Shown here: one piece after another, positions 144-5,514 of the stretch
Numbering within the stretch: position 1 is the first letter of the stretch
Layout of the letters: each line of letters opens with the position of its first letter
NCBI GenBank assembly: GCA_001799195.1
Contig: MGSU01000298.1
Location: forward strand, 1-5,514
Source of the DNA: Deltaproteobacteria bacterium RIFOXYA12_FULL_61_11
GTDB taxonomy: Bacteria; Bdellovibrionota_F; JAHFAK01; YA12-FULL-61-11
Direction: 5' to 3'
Length of the DNA: 5,514 nucleotides
The notes under the pieces: model-generated
The model's database searches: none
Seen by the model: the letters and a program-made list of their open reading frames with translations, nothing else
Told to the model about the DNA's origin: nothing
Program-made: the position numbers and the translations under genes

Positions 144-1670
144 GTGACACCACCTTCCACGTCGTTCCCTGGTCCCGGTCCATCGTACATGCTATACTTC
201 GGCCTCGTCAAAGCCGTGGAGGCAGCGCGATCCTTGAAAAACCAGAAAGAACCCGGCTCGGCAGCTTCCCTGAACCACTCGGGTCGACTGTTGCGTAGGT
301 GCAGGGCTCTGTGTTCGGACCGGCCCGAGGTGGAGGTTGAGGCCGAACTCGTCCTGGACGATAGCGACGGCGCGGCCTGGCTGCACAAACACTGCCCCGA
401 ACACGGGTTGGAGCGAGCCATGGTCGCGAGGTCCGGTTGGTACCTCGAGGGTCTTGACGACTATTACTATCGACTCAACCCGGGCCCCTCCCGGCCCGAT
501 CCGCGCCGTCTCTCCGGGCATGTGCTCTACCTGACCACCATGCGATGCAATTTCCGTTGTCCGGTCTGTTTCCTCGAACTCGATCGCGAGAAAGAACTGA
601 CCGAGAGCATCGAAGCGCCCAGTCTGGACCAGATCCGCGAGCTCGTCGGCCGTTTTCGCGGCTGGCGGGCAGAGATATTCCCCCTGGGGGCGGAACCGAC
701 GATGCGGCCTGAATTGCCTGAGATTATCGCCCTCATCCGGCGTTCGGGCAATTATCCGGTTCTGGTCAGTAACGGCGAACGGCTTCGAGATGCCCGTTTC
801 TTCCGGTGCCTCGTCGACGCCGGCTTGTCCAAGCTGGTGCTCAGCATCGACGCCCTGGCCGATCCCCAGGTCGAACAGCAGTTCCGCGGCCGGCAGGTGG
901 AGCGTTCGAAGTTCCAGGTCCTGGAACTCGCCCGGAAGTTCGGGCTGCCGGTGCAACTGGAACGTTGCATGGCCCGAGGCATCAACGACGACGATCTGAA
1001 TGCGCATTTGCGCCTGGCCCGCGGGTTTCCCATGGTCCATAACCTGGTCTACCGGAGTTATCTCGATGTCGGGAGCTGTTCCTCGTCCTTCAGTCGGGAG
1101 CATCAACTCCTGCCCGACGAGATCGTCGAGGCTCTCGGTCGAGCCAACCCCGAACTGGCCATGCGCGACTTCTACGTTTTCCAAAAGTTGCTCTATGCCC
1201 TGTGCCGCATCACCGGTATGCCGCGTTGTCATCGCACCCAGGCCCTCTTCGTCCCCAGGGATGCAGCACCTCCTCTTGCCGAGGTGCTGGATTTCGAAAC
1301 CCTCGAGCCGATCCTCGAGCGTTTCGCCGAGGACACCCCGGCCAAGCCGCGCCGGGCAGCGGCCTCCTTGCTCGCTTGGCTCGGTCGCAGACTCGTGCAT
1401 CGTCCTGACCTGCTCTACGTGTTCGGTCTCCAGGGCTTGCGCCGCTTTTCGTATCCCGAACGCCACTACCCGAACTCCTACCTCAGCGTCTGCGTCTCGT
1501 CGCTCTATGACGCGGCGACCTATCACGCCACGGGGGTCTGGCGCTGTCATTCGGTCTGGCACCACGGCGGCAAACCCGAGGATTTCGAACCTTTCTGCAA
1601 GGTCATCCTGGACAGCTCCCGCTTCAAGCGCCGCCTGCTTCACTATCAACAGTCGGCCGGGAGGAGCTGA
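144..1670 (+). CDS. radical SAM protein, Tes/MJ0619-like
   Basis: This is a predicted cytoplasmic radical SAM enzyme of 508 residues. It would bind a [4Fe-4S] cluster through C135, C139 and C142 (CNFRCPVC) and cleave S-adenosylmethionine to start radical chemistry. The barrel continues with GAEP at 182-185, a degenerate form of the usual GGEP SAM-binding motif, and LSIDAL at 233-238. The N-terminus has C53, C57 and a CPEHG element at 84-88, which resembles the zinc-ribbon-like head of the Tes/MJ0619 group, although the usual second Cys of the first CxxC is missing after C57. The C-terminus carries C450, C468 and C485 in a pattern (D455, RCHS at 467-470, H473/H474, FC at 484-485) that recalls the C-terminal auxiliary-cluster segment of that group. 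Family members make archaeal tetraether lipids or methylate methanopterin; the substrate here is unknown. The GTG start at 144 has no clear ribosome binding site. An in-frame ATG at 189 is an alternative. It is probably cotranscribed with the next gene. Confidence 0.8.
   Translation: MTPPSTSFPGPGPSYMLYFGLVKAVEAARSLKNQKEPGSAASLNHSGRLLRRCRALCSDRPEVEVEAELVLDDSDGAAWLHKHCPEHGLERAMVARSGWYLEGLDDYYYRLNPGPSRPDPRRLSGHVLYLTTMRCNFRCPVCFLELDREKELTESIEAPSLDQIRELVGRFRGWRAEIFPLGAEPTMRPELPEIIALIRRSGNYPVLVSNGERLRDARFFRCLVDAGLSKLVLSIDALADPQVEQQFRGRQVERSKFQVLELARKFGLPVQLERCMARGINDDDLNAHLRLARGFPMVHNLVYRSYLDVGSCSSSFSREHQLLPDEIVEALGRANPELAMRDFYVFQKLLYALCRITGMPRCHRTQALFVPRDAAPPLAEVLDFETLEPILERFAEDTPAKPRRAAASLLAWLGRRLVHRPDLLYVFGLQGLRRFSYPERHYPNSYLSVCVSSLYDAATYHATGVWRCHSVWHHGGKPEDFEPFCKVILDSSRFKRRLLHYQQSAGRS
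1264..1289 (+). repeat. intragenic 9-bp stem-loop
   Basis: CAGCACCTC at 1264-1272 is perfectly complementary to GAGGTGCTG at 1281-1289, with an 8-base loop. It lies inside the first radical SAM gene, around residues 374-382, in the linker between the barrel and the C-terminal segment. No T-run follows, so it is not an intrinsic terminator. It may affect the mRNA or be chance in GC-rich coding DNA. Confidence 0.4.
1660..1666 (+). promoter_or_regulatory. strong Shine-Dalgarno for second radical SAM gene
   Basis: GGAGGAG lies inside the last codons of the upstream radical SAM gene and 6 bases before the ATG at 1673. The upstream TGA ends at 1670, so only 2 bases separate the two genes. This arrangement predicts translational coupling and fixes the downstream start. 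Confidence 0.85.
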
Positions 1671-1672
1671 GC

Positions 1673-3076
1673 ATGGCCACGGTCCTCTTCCTCGACCATT
1701 TCTGGATCGAGAATCTCGGCATCATGCAGCTTTCGGCGGTCCTGAAGAGGGCCGGACATGCGTCTCATGTCACGACCGGCGGTATCGGCGCCATCGCCAG
1801 GGCAGTTGAGCGCTACAAACCCGACCTCTTGGCCTTCTCGTGTTTCATGACCGACTATCAGTGGCACCTCGAGCGGGCGGCCGAGTGTAAACAGCGCTTT
1901 CCAGAATTACCTATCATTTTCGGTGGTTATGCTCCGACCTTCCTGACCTCGAGCTTCTGCGTCGACCAGGTCGATTACCTGTGCAGAGGGGAGGGGGAAG
2001 AGCCGCTGCTCCACCTCGTCGAGTACCTCGAGACCGGCCGTCCGGCGATGGAGGATCTCAACCTCTTGTGCCGCGAAGACGGCTTCCGCGCCAAGCCCTT
2101 CAATATCGTCCGGGACCTCGACAGGTTGCCCTGGGTGGACAGGGATCTCTTCGATTTCGGTCGCGACAACCCGCATCCCTTCATGATCCTCACCTCGCGG
2201 GGGTGCGTGCATTCCTGTTCGTTCTGCACCAACACGCTGATGCGCGAGGAAGCCGGCCCCGGCACGCCCAAGGTGCGCTTCCGCGCCCTTGAGGACGTGC
2301 TCGCCGAGCTGCGCGAACTGAAGAAAACCCGCAAGGTGTCGGAGATCAAGTTCGTCGACTACACCTTCAACCAGGATCAGGCGCGCATGCTCGAACTGCT
2401 CGAGCGCTACAATTGCGAGATCGATCTGCCCTTCAAGTTCGATATCCGGGGCAATTTCTTCACCGAGGACCAGGCCCGGCTCCTGGCCCGGTCGAAGTGC
2501 CTGCTTGTGCATTTCGGTATCGAGAGTGGCAGCGAACGGCTGCGCAACCAGGTCCTGAACAAGAACCTCAGCGACGCGCAGATCCTGGCCGCGGCCGAAC
2601 TCCTGCACCGCTACAAGTTGCGGTTCGTTACCTTCAATATGTGGGGTCTACCCCATGAGACCCTCGCCGATGCGGAACGGACGATCGAGCTGAACCATCG
2701 CGTGCGGCCGCTCTCGCCGGTGTCCACGCTCTATCTACCTTTCGCCGGGCATCCCCTGACTCGCCAGAGTATCGAGGAAGGGTTGGTCGATCCGGCAGAG
2801 CTACCCCTGGTGCAATTCGAACCGTGGCGTTCGTGTACCAGCATCGTCAAGAATCCCGATGCGCGGCGCATCGAGATGGTGATGTACTTCTCCCACCTCT
2901 CAGTCGTGTTCCCGGCTACGTGGCCCTTCTTCCGGTGGCTGGCCAGGACCGTGCGACCCAACTGGTTCTTCCGCTTCCTGTACGCGGCCATCACGCTCGG
3001 GTTCATCGTCCGTTGGGGACCCCATTTCGCCTGGATCGTCGCCAAGTACTCCTTCCTGCGCCTGTTGCGGCGCTGA
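1673..3076 (+). CDS. cobalamin-binding radical SAM protein
   Basis: This 467-residue protein has the standard two-part layout of class B (B12-dependent) radical SAM enzymes, whose members include methyltransferases and ring-forming enzymes. Residues 1 to about 125 form a Rossmann-like B12-binding domain, with IIFGGYAPTF at 81-90 and VDYLCRGEGEE at 100-110, the usual GG and RGEGE signatures. No DxHxxG motif is visible, so cobalamin would bind without a protein His ligand, as is common in this class. The radical SAM domain starts at about 170 with SRGCVHSCSFC, giving cluster ligands C178, C182 and C185. GIESGSERLRNQVLNKN at 282-298 is the conserved SAM/barrel motif. The last 37 residues (431-467) are aromatic, hydrophobic and end in LLRR, which suggests membrane contact or an apolar substrate. 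The start is well supported by a strong ribosome binding site. Its final 177 bases overlap the opposite-strand gene. Exact substrate and reaction cannot be read from the sequence. Confidence 0.9.
   Translation: MATVLFLDHFWIENLGIMQLSAVLKRAGHASHVTTGGIGAIARAVERYKPDLLAFSCFMTDYQWHLERAAECKQRFPELPIIFGGYAPTFLTSSFCVDQVDYLCRGEGEEPLLHLVEYLETGRPAMEDLNLLCREDGFRAKPFNIVRDLDRLPWVDRDLFDFGRDNPHPFMILTSRGCVHSCSFCTNTLMREEAGPGTPKVRFRALEDVLAELRELKKTRKVSEIKFVDYTFNQDQARMLELLERYNCEIDLPFKFDIRGNFFTEDQARLLARSKCLLVHFGIESGSERLRNQVLNKNLSDAQILAAAELLHRYKLRFVTFNMWGLPHETLADAERTIELNHRVRPLSPVSTLYLPFAGHPLTRQSIEEGLVDPAELPLVQFEPWRSCTSIVKNPDARRIEMVMYFSHLSVVFPATWPFFRWLARTVRPNWFFRFLYAAITLGFIVRWGPHFAWIVAKYSFLRLLRR
2900..3076. other. convergent 177-bp gene overlap
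   Basis: The plus-strand cobalamin radical SAM gene stops with TGA at 3074-3076. The minus-strand membrane-protein gene does not stop until TGA at 2902-2900. Both frames are open here. The plus-strand product keeps a plausible family-like C-terminus (about residues 409-467). The minus-strand product becomes Pro/Glu/Asp/Gly-rich with no hydrophobic segment (about residues 550-607). The plus frame therefore looks like the ancestral coding one and the minus frame like a read-through extension. There is no space for a bidirectional terminator between the genes. Confidence 0.8.
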
Positions 3077-4723
3077 AGGATCCTCGGAACCCTGCGACGG
3101 CGGGACCGGGGGGAAGACCTCGACCCCGAGCATGAGGTAGGACATGAGGTATTCCTTCCCGGGCAGGGGCTGGAGCTGCTCGGCGTACTCGAGGAGGAGG
3201 TCGGTTGTGCCGTTCTCGGTGAAACACTCCTCGAGACCCTGGACCTGATCTTCCATCACCAGGACCAACACCTTGTCCTCGTAACGCCGGTCCACGGCCA
3301 CTTCCTGGTTGGCATTGAAGAAGACCTCGGGGAAGGAGAGCCGGAGGTTGGCCTCCAGGGAGGCTTCCTGGACGAAGGTGGGGCAGTACAGGATGCGCAC
3401 CCGATCCCGCGGTTCCAGCTTCAACATGGAGAAGTCCTTTTCCATCAGGGGATCGGGTGGGACGAGGCGGTCATAGCCCTGGAAGGCATGATCTTGCCGG
3501 GAACGCAGTTCGAGCAGGTCCCTGAGGGGATGTTCGAGGAAGGACAGGGCCAGGGCATTGCCCGAGAGGGTGATGACGACGAGAACGCGGAGCAGGAGCC
3601 TCCGCTCGGAGAGCCAGAGTCCCAGGAAGATGGCTCCGAGCGAATAGAGGGGCAACAGGTAGAAGGACCTCTTCTGACCGAACATGGTCAACAGCACCAG
3701 GGCGAGGAGCCAGACGAAGAGGAAGAGCGCCGAGGGTTCCTTCCAACGGGGGTTTCTCAGAACCGCGGTCATGGAACGCACCAGGAAGAACAGCGGCACG
3801 AGGGTATACCCTTTCAAGAGGTAGAGGGGATAAAAGACGACCAGGAAGGGAATGGAGGAACCGTAGATCTCGGCCAAGATTCCGCCGGACAGCGAGAGCC
3901 AGTTCCTGAACAGCATGTCGTACAGGGCGGTCACGGTATCCTCGAGGCCGAAGGCCAGACTCACGCCCACGAAAGCGATGAGTCCTGCGCCCACCGTAAG
4001 GAAGCTTCGAAGGAGGCGGCGTCTGCCGTGCAGGATGAGCAGCAGCAGGAAGGGGGCGACCAGCAGGAAGAAGATCAGTTTGATCGAGGTTCCGAGCACG
4101 AGGCAGGCCAGGAACAGGCTCAGCGAACGTAGGAGCTTGCGTCCTTGCAGCAAACGCCAGGTTTGGAAGCAGCACACCATGAAGGGCCCGGCGAGGAGCA
4201 GGTCCAAGTTGTAGAAACGGGAGGCCGCCAACACGGACGGTGTGACGAAGAAGGTCATCACGGCATACAACGCACCGACCGGTCCGCTCAGCTCCCGGAG
4301 CAGGACGAACAGGTACCAGGCGGCCAGGAGCAGCGACAGGTGGAGGAGGGCGAAGAGCGAATACAGGTTCTTGCCGAACAGGTAGGTGACCGCTCCGCTG
4401 AAATAGAGCCCCAAGGGGAGCCGGACCCAGGTGATGGTTTCGGGATGGTACCGGGTGACAATGGCGGGATCTCCCCCCTGTGCGTAGAGGTGCAACGCAT
4501 CGCCGACCTGCATGGCCAGGCACATGAGGATGGTGGAATCCCCGGTCTGGAAATCGGTGTTCTTGTCGTGCCAATACAGGGTCGCGGCGAGCAAGACTGC
4601 GAGGAGCCCTGCCGCCAGGACGATATCTGCTCGGTGGAGGCTCTGCGGTGGAACTTTGCCGGGACTGCTCGTCATCGTTCGTTCTCGCCCGAGGCGCTGG
4701 ACTCGCAACACACCTGCTGCCAT
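2900..4723 (-). CDS. polytopic membrane glycosyltransferase-like protein (GT-C, ArnT/PMT-like)
   Basis: This 607-residue protein would sit in the inner membrane. GT-C enzymes of the ArnT/PMT type use polyprenyl-phosphate sugars to glycosylate lipids or proteins on the outer face. About 10 to 12 hydrophobic segments run from residue 33 to 394, beginning at 33-50. The first long loop (about 51-103) carries D53, D57 and D62, where this fold places its catalytic acid. RFYNLDLLLAGPF at 169-181 resembles the conserved Asp-containing helix start of the superfamily. Residues about 408-540 form a soluble, probably periplasmic, domain (ILYCPTF at 444-450). Residues from about 541 are acidic, Pro-rich and low complexity, and from 550 they are antisense to the radical SAM gene. 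The ATG at 4723 has only a weak ribosome binding site. An in-frame ATG at 4675 (residue 17) may be the true start, since a -10-like TATACT ends 2 bases before the first ATG. Donor and acceptor are unknown, and a non-catalytic GT-C relative is possible. Confidence 0.8.
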   Translation of the reverse strand: MAAGVLRVQRLGRERTMTSSPGKVPPQSLHRADIVLAAGLLAVLLAATLYWHDKNTDFQTGDSTILMCLAMQVGDALHLYAQGGDPAIVTRYHPETITWVRLPLGLYFSGAVTYLFGKNLYSLFALLHLSLLLAAWYLFVLLRELSGPVGALYAVMTFFVTPSVLAASRFYNLDLLLAGPFMVCCFQTWRLLQGRKLLRSLSLFLACLVLGTSIKLIFFLLVAPFLLLLILHGRRRLLRSFLTVGAGLIAFVGVSLAFGLEDTVTALYDMLFRNWLSLSGGILAEIYGSSIPFLVVFYPLYLLKGYTLVPLFFLVRSMTAVLRNPRWKEPSALFLFVWLLALVLLTMFGQKRSFYLLPLYSLGAIFLGLWLSERRLLLRVLVVITLSGNALALSFLEHPLRDLLELRSRQDHAFQGYDRLVPPDPLMEKDFSMLKLEPRDRVRILYCPTFVQEASLEANLRLSFPEVFFNANQEVAVDRRYEDKVLVLVMEDQVQGLEECFTENGTTDLLLEYAEQLQPLPGKEYLMSYLMLGVEVFPPVPPSQGSEDPSAPQQAQEGVLGDDPGEMGSPTDDEPERDGRVQEAEEPVGSHGPGQPPEEGPRSREHD

Positions 4724-4822: not shown

Positions 4823-4837
4823 TTGCTCCTCTCCTTC

Positions 4838-4855
4838 CCTCATGGTACCTTGAGG
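4838..4855. promoter_or_regulatory. 18-bp near-palindrome, candidate operator
   Basis: CCTCATGGTACCTTGAGG is symmetric around 4846/4847 except for one T-T pair (4843/4850), so 16 of 18 bases obey dyad symmetry. It ends 18 bases before the GTG start of the lipoprotein gene and overlaps the first of two GGAGG-like stretches (GAGGAGG at 4852-4858). The placement suits a repressor operator or an RNA hairpin that hides part of the leader. No regulator is known from this window. Confidence 0.45.
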
Positions 4856-4863
4856 AGGTTGCT

Positions 4864-4868
4864 GGAGG
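4864..4868 (+). promoter_or_regulatory. Shine-Dalgarno of lipoprotein gene
   Basis: GGAGG lies 5 bases before the GTG at 4874 and supports that start over the out-of-frame ATG codons at 4842 and 4887. An in-frame TTG at 4859 touches the upstream GAGGAGG and is too close to use it. Confidence 0.6.
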
Positions 4869-4873
4869 TCCCC

Positions 4874-5514
4874 GTGTCCACCACCGATGCTCCTTGTCGT
4901 GCCCGTTCATGCTGCCCGGGTGCCCTCGCGATCGTCCTGCTCCTGGCCTGCTCTCCGACGGTGGACCTCTCCACGGTCGAGGCGCCCGAACCTCCTCGCC
5001 TGCCGCTCAATCTGCCGGGGGGGTGCGATGATTTCGATCCTACCTGCAATCCCGACCCGATCTTCGAGATCAATACTAATGACATGGTCGCCCCTGTCGA
5101 TGAACTGCCCACGGTGCCGGAGCTGGCCCGCCGGCTCCAGGAATTGATCACCCGAGGAGACGATCCGGGACTTTCCGTTACCCAGGGTCTTGGCACCGAG
5201 GCCGTGCTCGAAGAGCTTGCCCAGGGGAGATCCGCCCCGGTGGTGGCGGCCAATCGCCCTCATGAAGCTACTGCCGTGGACCCGGACCTCTTGCGCTTGC
5301 TCCTTGCCTTGCACCAGGCAGGACAAGCGGTCGAACTGCGCTTGCTCACGAACGGGGAGCACCCCGACGACAGCGCTCACTACTACGGCAGGGCGATGGA
5401 TGTGGGCAAGGACCTGGACCTCTACCGCTACCTCTTCGAGCACCGCCAGGAGCTGTGTATCTCGAGCCTCATCACCATGCCTCCCGAGGACTGGCCCCAG
5501 GGGACCTATAACCT
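4874..5514 (+). CDS. lipoprotein with M15-like peptidase motif, partial (3' end missing)
   Basis: The gene starts with GTG and is still open at the right edge, giving 213 residues and part of one codon. The N-terminus is a lipoprotein signal: basic residues R9 and R11, a hydrophobic core (about 16-25), and a lipobox LLAC with the lipidated Cys at 26, so the mature protein would be anchored in the membrane facing the periplasm. A Pro-rich linker with C51 and C58 follows. At 167-177 the sequence SAHYYGRAMDV matches the SxHxxGxAxD signature of peptidase family M15 and related hedgehog-fold domains, where H169 and D176 would be zinc ligands. Families with this motif cut peptidoglycan D-Ala-D-Ala or cross-links. 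The expected second His and catalytic Glu would lie beyond the edge, so activity cannot be judged, and an inactive M15-like domain is possible. It is transcribed away from the membrane-protein gene, from a shared intergenic region with repeats. Confidence 0.75.
   Translation, partial: MSTTDAPCRARSCCPGALAIVLLLACSPTVDLSTVEAPEPPRLPLNLPGGCDDFDPTCNPDPIFEINTNDMVAPVDELPTVPELARRLQELITRGDDPGLSVTQGLGTEAVLEELAQGRSAPVVAANRPHEATAVDPDLLRLLLALHQAGQAVELRLLTNGEHPDDSAHYYGRAMDVGKDLDLYRYLFEHRQELCISSLITMPPEDWPQGTYN

Follow-up and report, generated by a model that had tools for sequence, protein, structure and literature searches.

A pair of adjacent radical S-adenosylmethionine (SAM) genes was found on contig MGSU01000298.1 (G000:C298) of Deltaproteobacteria bacterium RIFOXYA12_FULL_61_11. 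The entire contig (5,514 nucleotides, hereafter the window) was analyzed, and the genomic context of the pair is that of the window. The host assembly has a size of 4.64 Mb in 342 contigs and is 87% complete; the host phylum is represented by two genomes in the collection used. The two genes, designated P1 and P2, contain the following features:

144–1670, + strand: P1, Tes-like radical SAM protein (GTG at 144 to TGA at 1668–1670, 508 codons; start uncertain)
546–569, + strand: radical SAM motif of P1, C135-x3-C139-x2-C142, invariant in every aligned relative
1227–1598, + strand: C-terminal auxiliary cluster region of P1 with C362, C468, C485 and the extra C450, from the alignment with 7tol
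1659–1666, + strand: GGGAGGAG, Shine–Dalgarno-like ribosome-binding site for P2, within P1, six bases 5' of the P2 ATG
1673–3076, + strand: P2, B12-binding/radical SAM protein (ATG at 1673 to the stop at 3076, 467 codons)
1709–2017, + strand: B12-binding domain of P2, residues 13–115 (PF02310, 50 bits; cut-off 32.1)
2189–2692, + strand: radical SAM domain of P2, residues 173–340 with C178, C182 and C185 (PF04055, 75.9 bits)

The stop codon of P1 and the start codon of P2 are separated by a spacer of two bases (GC) on the same strand, and the junction reads GGGAGGAGCTGAGCATGG. Both proteins passed the Pfam radical SAM cut-off of 29.5 bits, P1 with 59.7 and P2 with 75.9 bits. The coordinates and Pfam domains agree with the initial annotation, which had described two radical SAM open reading frames (ORFs) of different classes, two bases apart, with a ribosome-binding site inside the first. 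Note that the start codon of P1 is doubtful: residues 1–45 are poorly predicted in the model described below, and most relatives start approximately 30–50 residues further in than the annotated GTG. An Rfam scan of the window gave no matches.

The closest solved relative of P1 was found to be Tes, with an E-value of 8e-19 using the single sequence, and a three-member profile matched 7tol over nearly the full length with an E-value of 1e-68. An AlphaFold model of P1 was obtained without templates from a 36-row alignment that included Tes sequences, with a pLDDT (predicted local distance difference test) of 84.8. Comparison of the model with Tes (7tom) gave a Z-score of 36.8 over 423 residues, MoaA being second with 21.1. 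The Tes fold, comprising rubredoxin, radical SAM and C-terminal cluster domains, was recovered at model residues 46–504 (Z 36.6–36.8). As judged from the predicted model, P1 has the Tes architecture from end to end. The NCBIfam equivalog cut-offs are 450 bits for Tes (NF045702) and 490 bits for TrsS (NF045646). The best NCBIfam score of P1 was that for TrsS (86.8 bits, over the radical SAM core), followed by 75.5 bits for Tes. In the controls, the Tes scores were 746 bits for L030 (Methanothermococcus) and 575 bits for L028, and the TrsS score of L068 was 628 bits. P1 is neither Tes nor TrsS, since its scores are far below the cut-offs, the N-terminal auxiliary [4Fe-4S] motif is missing and Ser replaces Met439. 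Thus, the Tes-likeness proposed in the initial annotation is borne out in fold and profile match, but P1 is not Tes itself and stands on a separate branch.

The Tes superfamily tree, constructed from 47 proteins, is divided into three parts. Clade I (13 proteins, support 100/98) includes P1, its host paralogue from contig C336 and proteins of Omnitrophota, Acidobacteriota, Undinarchaeota and Woesearchaeota. Clade II (10 proteins, support 100/99) comes from unnamed phyla, and the third part consists of Tes and TrsS. P1 appears to belong to a deep, uncharacterised branch of the superfamily; it does not fall within TrsS, and both its scores and its cluster motifs set it well apart from Tes, but no exact position within the superfamily is claimed here. 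A search of 386 genomes with P1 revealed members in only three of them, including the host's own (E 1e-25). A scan of the genome contigs with the single P1 sequence found no relative, whereas an alignment-based scan did. In locus L120 (9117–10608), the Tes-like gene of genome G387 is broken into three overlapping ORFs, by either a frameshift or an assembly error.

Other assignments of P1 were rejected. A grouping with TrsS was rejected (p value of the approximately unbiased test, p-AU, 0.003), and the TrsS score of 86.8 bits compares with the cut-off of 490. Methylation of methanopterin, offered as an alternative in the initial annotation, is outdated: MJ0619 is Tes, and its annotation as a pterin methylase was judged incorrect (PMC9433317). 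The HMPTM zinc ribbon PF23545 scored 24.6 bits in P1, narrowly below the cut-off of 27, which may still reflect a distant kinship. The peptide-modifying SPASM enzymes had been named as an example of an unrelated family in which P1 might fall, and no match to the SPASM domain PF13186 was found in P1 with Pfam at E-values up to 1.

The cofactor sites of P1 were compared with those of Tes (after PMC9433317) through alignment with the 7tol sequence. C362, C468 and C485 of P1 are the counterparts of C338, C455 and C470 of Tes, and their conservation allows us to assume that they are cluster ligands. The extra C450 is located two positions ahead of the site corresponding to Met439 of Tes. Among relatives, this site is occupied by Glu in clade II and mostly by Ile, with a Cys nearby, in the subgroup of the paralogue. 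The segment with the N-terminal auxiliary cluster motif of Tes (C73-x3-C77-x2-C80 and a His) is absent from P1 and from all members of clade I. The rubredoxin ligands C57, C84 and H87 are kept in P1. Between C362 and C450, P1 contains hydrophobic helices (68 residues, 46% hydrophobic). This region spans 67–82 residues with 36–52% hydrophobicity in most Tes proteins and 31–68 residues with 29–43% on the TrsS side. In length and hydrophobicity, P1 matches the region of the second lipid pocket of Tes, whereas the TrsS-side proteins are generally shorter and less hydrophobic here.

P2 is a B12-binding/radical SAM enzyme of the B12-dependent class, as the initial annotation had suggested; it combines PF02310 and PF04055 and has the fold of the class. 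Its cysteines C178, C182 and C185 (C-x3-C-x2-C) are invariant, and its C-terminus forms a long helix of 38 residues (429–466). The nearest folds, which inform on the class of P2 and not on its reaction, are MgmA (9CCB; Z 31.5), AprD4 (30.3), CysS (29.9), OxsB (28.2) and TsrM (26.6). P2 shares the two-domain fold with these enzymes but differs from them in forming its own branch, in the long C-terminal helix and in reaching no family cut-off; in NCBIfam, it remained below the cut-off of every named family. The tree branch of P2 (support 96/92) unites it with B12 genes of the loci L010, L015, L114, L115, L119, L122 and L124, and those of L119, L122 and L124 adjoin Tes-like genes.

The partnership was evaluated in loci collected by similarity to P1 only. 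Genes for B12-radical SAM proteins were found in seven of the ten loci of the P1 branch (13 copies in 133 kb, or 9.8 per 100 kb) and in two of the 74 Tes/TrsS loci (2 copies in 850 kb). Across six such genomes, B12-binding domains of every kind numbered 31–71 per genome, a background of approximately 0.7–1.3 per 100 kb, so the neighborhood is enriched several-fold even in B12-rich genomes; these are plain counts without a formal test, and L016/L018 and L122/L123 are related and hence non-independent. Tight same-strand, translational coupling of Tes-like and B12 genes was also repeated, with a gap of 2 bp in the window, 0 bp in L122 and L123 and 2 bp in L117, where the B12 gene comes from another B12 branch than that of P2. 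In L119, stop/start overlaps are present on both sides. The cassette of L122 consists of a Tes-like gene and two B12 genes in this order and is flanked by genes for a prismane protein and catalase, suggesting that no further linked gene is required by the module. The pairing of P1 with P2 is conserved across unrelated bacteria and archaea. The expectation of the initial annotation that the pair would be conserved was thus confirmed for unrelated genomes, but in the only other genome of the host's class in the collection a clear P1 homologue was sought and not found. Because it recurs in unrelated bacteria and archaea, the partnership has the look of a genuine, as yet uncharacterised pathway, which probably acts on a greasy molecule.

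The reading that we prefer is that P1 and P2 constitute a conserved radical SAM module of two enzymes, which acts on a membrane lipid through activation or coupling of an unactivated carbon together with methylation; we consider it about as apt to prove right as wrong. The carbon–carbon coupling, the methylation and, as a possibility, the lipid substrate were already proposed in the initial annotation, and we likewise infer them. The branch of P1 would have lost the N-terminal auxiliary [4Fe-4S] cluster and retained the radical SAM cluster, the C-terminal auxiliary-cluster domain and, within the branch of P1 itself, the long hydrophobic helices resembling the second lipid pocket of Tes. P1 would cleave SAM and remove a hydrogen atom at an unactivated carbon within a long alkyl or polyprenyl chain. 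The resulting carbon radical could then be trapped on the C-terminal cluster of P1, either for bonding with a second carbon or to remain as a C–S product. With cobalamin and a second SAM, P2 would subsequently introduce a methyl group, or some other modification, at an unactivated carbon of this molecule, which would still be held in the membrane. Methylation is the most frequent chemistry of the B12-radical SAM class. The gene coupling, the hydrophobic helices of P1 and the tail helix of P2 suggest that both enzymes work on one hydrophobic molecule. This shared substrate, its lipid nature and the bonds made belong to the proposal; the genes, their coupling, the predicted folds, the cluster ligands and the recurrence of the partnership are what was observed.

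A number of observations weigh against this reading. The labile-ligand site Met439 of Tes is Ser in P1, and the conserved Tyr459 is Trp. In the rubredoxin domain (C-x2-C-x20-C-x2-H in Tes), the second Cys is Val63, for which C53 could be a stand-in. The Tes variants M439A and Y459F/L remain active (PMC9433317), and given the activity of M439A, Ser at this site need not abolish Tes-type chemistry. P1 has a very long branch, and two other placements, one joining it to clade II and one to the Tes/TrsS side as a whole, were not rejected (p-AU 0.12 in each case). The fold of P2 is equally close to the non-methylating enzymes AprD4 and OxsB, and the P2 tree was built almost entirely from clade I/II Tes-like loci, so its branch need not be exclusive to such loci. 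Finally, hopene cyclase and geranylgeranylglyceryl phosphate (GGGP) synthase were sought in the 87% complete host genome and not found, which makes a hopanoid or an archaeal-type lipid unlikely. The host does encode a large BcrAD_BadFG/DUF2229 protein, which is compatible with an ether-lipid reductase, since its domain set is known from reductases of the PlsA/Ger type. Because of this protein and the missing cyclase and synthase, our first guess for the substrate is a lipid of the fatty-acyl or ether type, or else a polyprenol.

The main rival is that the module acts on a sugar or glycan intermediate or on a small specialized metabolite instead of a membrane lipid, which we regard as possible but rather unlikely. 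The neighbors include genes of a glycan-assembly type, namely PMT_2 in the window, L014 and L119, DegT and flavin adenine dinucleotide (FAD) genes in L010, an FAD gene in L016, a galactokinase-type gene in L119 and a family-2 glycosyltransferase (GT2) in L117. The neighboring FAD gene is similar to uridine diphosphate (UDP)-galactopyranose mutase, and one of the nearest folds of P2, AprD4, is a dehydratase whose structure was solved with paromamine. However, no glycan gene adjoins the L122/L123 cassette, where the flanking genes encode a prismane protein and catalase, and P1 retains the helices of the second pocket of Tes. It is also conceivable, though quite improbable, that P1 makes a C–S bond and no C–C bond, with its C-terminal cluster serving as a sulfur donor as in lipoyl synthase. 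The intermediate of Tes is itself C–S-bonded to the C-terminal cluster (PMC9433317), the ligands of this cluster are altered in P1 (Ser at 439 and the extra C450), and PP-loop-like genes near the members in L016 and L019 would fit sulfur chemistry; such genes do not occur at most loci, the window among them, and we identified them by our own reading, with no match in Pfam.

Maturation of ribosomal peptides is a task of numerous SPASM and B12 radical SAM enzymes, and P2 gave weak scores with the families of C-methyltransferases of ribosomally synthesized and post-translationally modified peptides and with ApyD. Such a role for P1 and P2 is nevertheless highly improbable: P1 has no SPASM match, its nearest solved relative by a wide margin is Tes, and no precursor-like gene was seen beside the pair in the window, in which short ORFs were not systematically searched. 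The preferred reading, a module acting on a membrane lipid, may be extended to a widespread, undescribed anaerobic pathway of uncultured bacteria and archaea yielding a new lipid class. In such lipids, an unactivated chain carbon would be both coupled, by a Tes-type enzyme whose C-terminal cluster has been re-designed, and methylated, by the B12 radical SAM partner dedicated to it; this extension is unlikely in our estimate. Methylated membrane-spanning lipids occur in sediments and would be one possible product of such a pathway.

A comparison with known systems showed that P1 resembles Tes/GDGT-MAS (MJ0619, 7TOL/7TOM) in the full-length fold, the radical SAM motif, the three C-terminal cysteines and the second-pocket helices. 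It differs from Tes in score (75.5 versus 450 bits), in the absent N-terminal cluster motif, in the altered rubredoxin, in the loss of Met439 and Tyr459 and in the adjoining B12-radical SAM gene, a neighbor seldom found at Tes loci. The likeness to TrsS (NF045646) consists of the top NCBIfam score and the radical SAM core, but the TrsS proteins have the N-terminal cluster motif and Met439 and do not have the long hydrophobic helices. Bacterial Tes homologues of Acidobacteriota and Planctomycetota, such as L028, belong to the same superfamily and have the same domain order as P1; unlike P1, L028 passes the Tes cut-off (575 bits) and is located on the Tes side of the tree.

In the reaction of Tes, a terminal carbon loses a hydrogen and is then held by a sulfur of the C-terminal cluster, awaiting attack by the second radical (PMC9433317). 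P1 possesses what the initial steps of this reaction require, and P2 is equipped for radical chemistry assisted by cobalamin. According to structure models, the bacterial membrane-spanning lipid synthase Mss is reported to resemble Tes in its catalytic architecture (PMC13274423), and bacterial Tes homologues have been reported, with their function unproven (PMC8941075, PMC11868695). The surveys of Tes applied cut-offs of E < 1e-50 or E < 1e-30 (PMC8941075, PMC11868695) and would probably miss the branch of P1, whose E-value with Tes is 8e-19. A literature search of incomplete coverage revealed no account of a Tes branch without the N-terminal cluster or of its B12 partner. Only some of the enzymes behind bacterial membrane-spanning lipids are known, and bacterial Tes homologues await assignment. 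The branch of P1 and P2 offers a defined two-gene cassette open to expression and testing, and it presents natural ligand variants at the cluster that holds the reaction intermediate in Tes.

Downstream of the pair, the window contains a convergent gene:

2900–4723, − strand: GT-C (PMT_2) membrane glycosyltransferase (PF13231, 43.2 bits), overlapping the 3' end of P2 by 177 bp

This ORF is antisense to the end of P2 (2900–3076), and its terminal residues are of low complexity, so the ORF may run past its true end or contain a frameshift. The initial annotation had seen an envelope setting in GT-C and the nearby lipoprotein. Multi-transmembrane (multi-TM, GT-C-like) genes are enriched near the branch of P1, but the compact cassette of L122/L123 has no such gene next to it. 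No recognizable relative of the window GT-C was found among the fetched loci using phmmer, so the link is drawn from the multi-TM enrichment only, and GT-C is a possible but not necessary associate of P1 and P2. The last gene of the window (4823–5512, + strand), cut at the contig end, encodes a putative lipoprotein (LLAC) with no Pfam match; its sequence HYYGRAMDVG resembles, in our reading, the M15-type HxxGxAxD motif.

In the host, locus L010 (G000:C336:12001–32000) contains the Tes-like paralogue, three B12-radical SAM genes, several other radical SAM genes, two U32-like genes, an FAD oxidoreductase, DegT and multi-TM proteins. Parts of this gene set are shared by the Omnitrophota loci L015 and L017 and the Acidobacteriota loci L016 and L018, and the L015 homologue of the first U32-like ORF of L010 is U32; one of the two U32-like ORFs of L010 had no Pfam match. 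The radical SAM ORF beside the paralogue (L010, 12446–13357) includes a run of X, either masked sequence or an assembly gap. The PP-loop-like proteins near Tes-like genes are encoded at 2927–3703 of L016 (an acidobacterium; no Pfam match) and at 1636–2391 of L019 (an archaeon). The host BcrAD_BadFG/DUF2229 protein is encoded at 2–2773 of L125 (G000:C7), where a single ORF, cut at the contig end and at least 924 aa long, contains two BcrAD_BadFG stretches and DUF2229.

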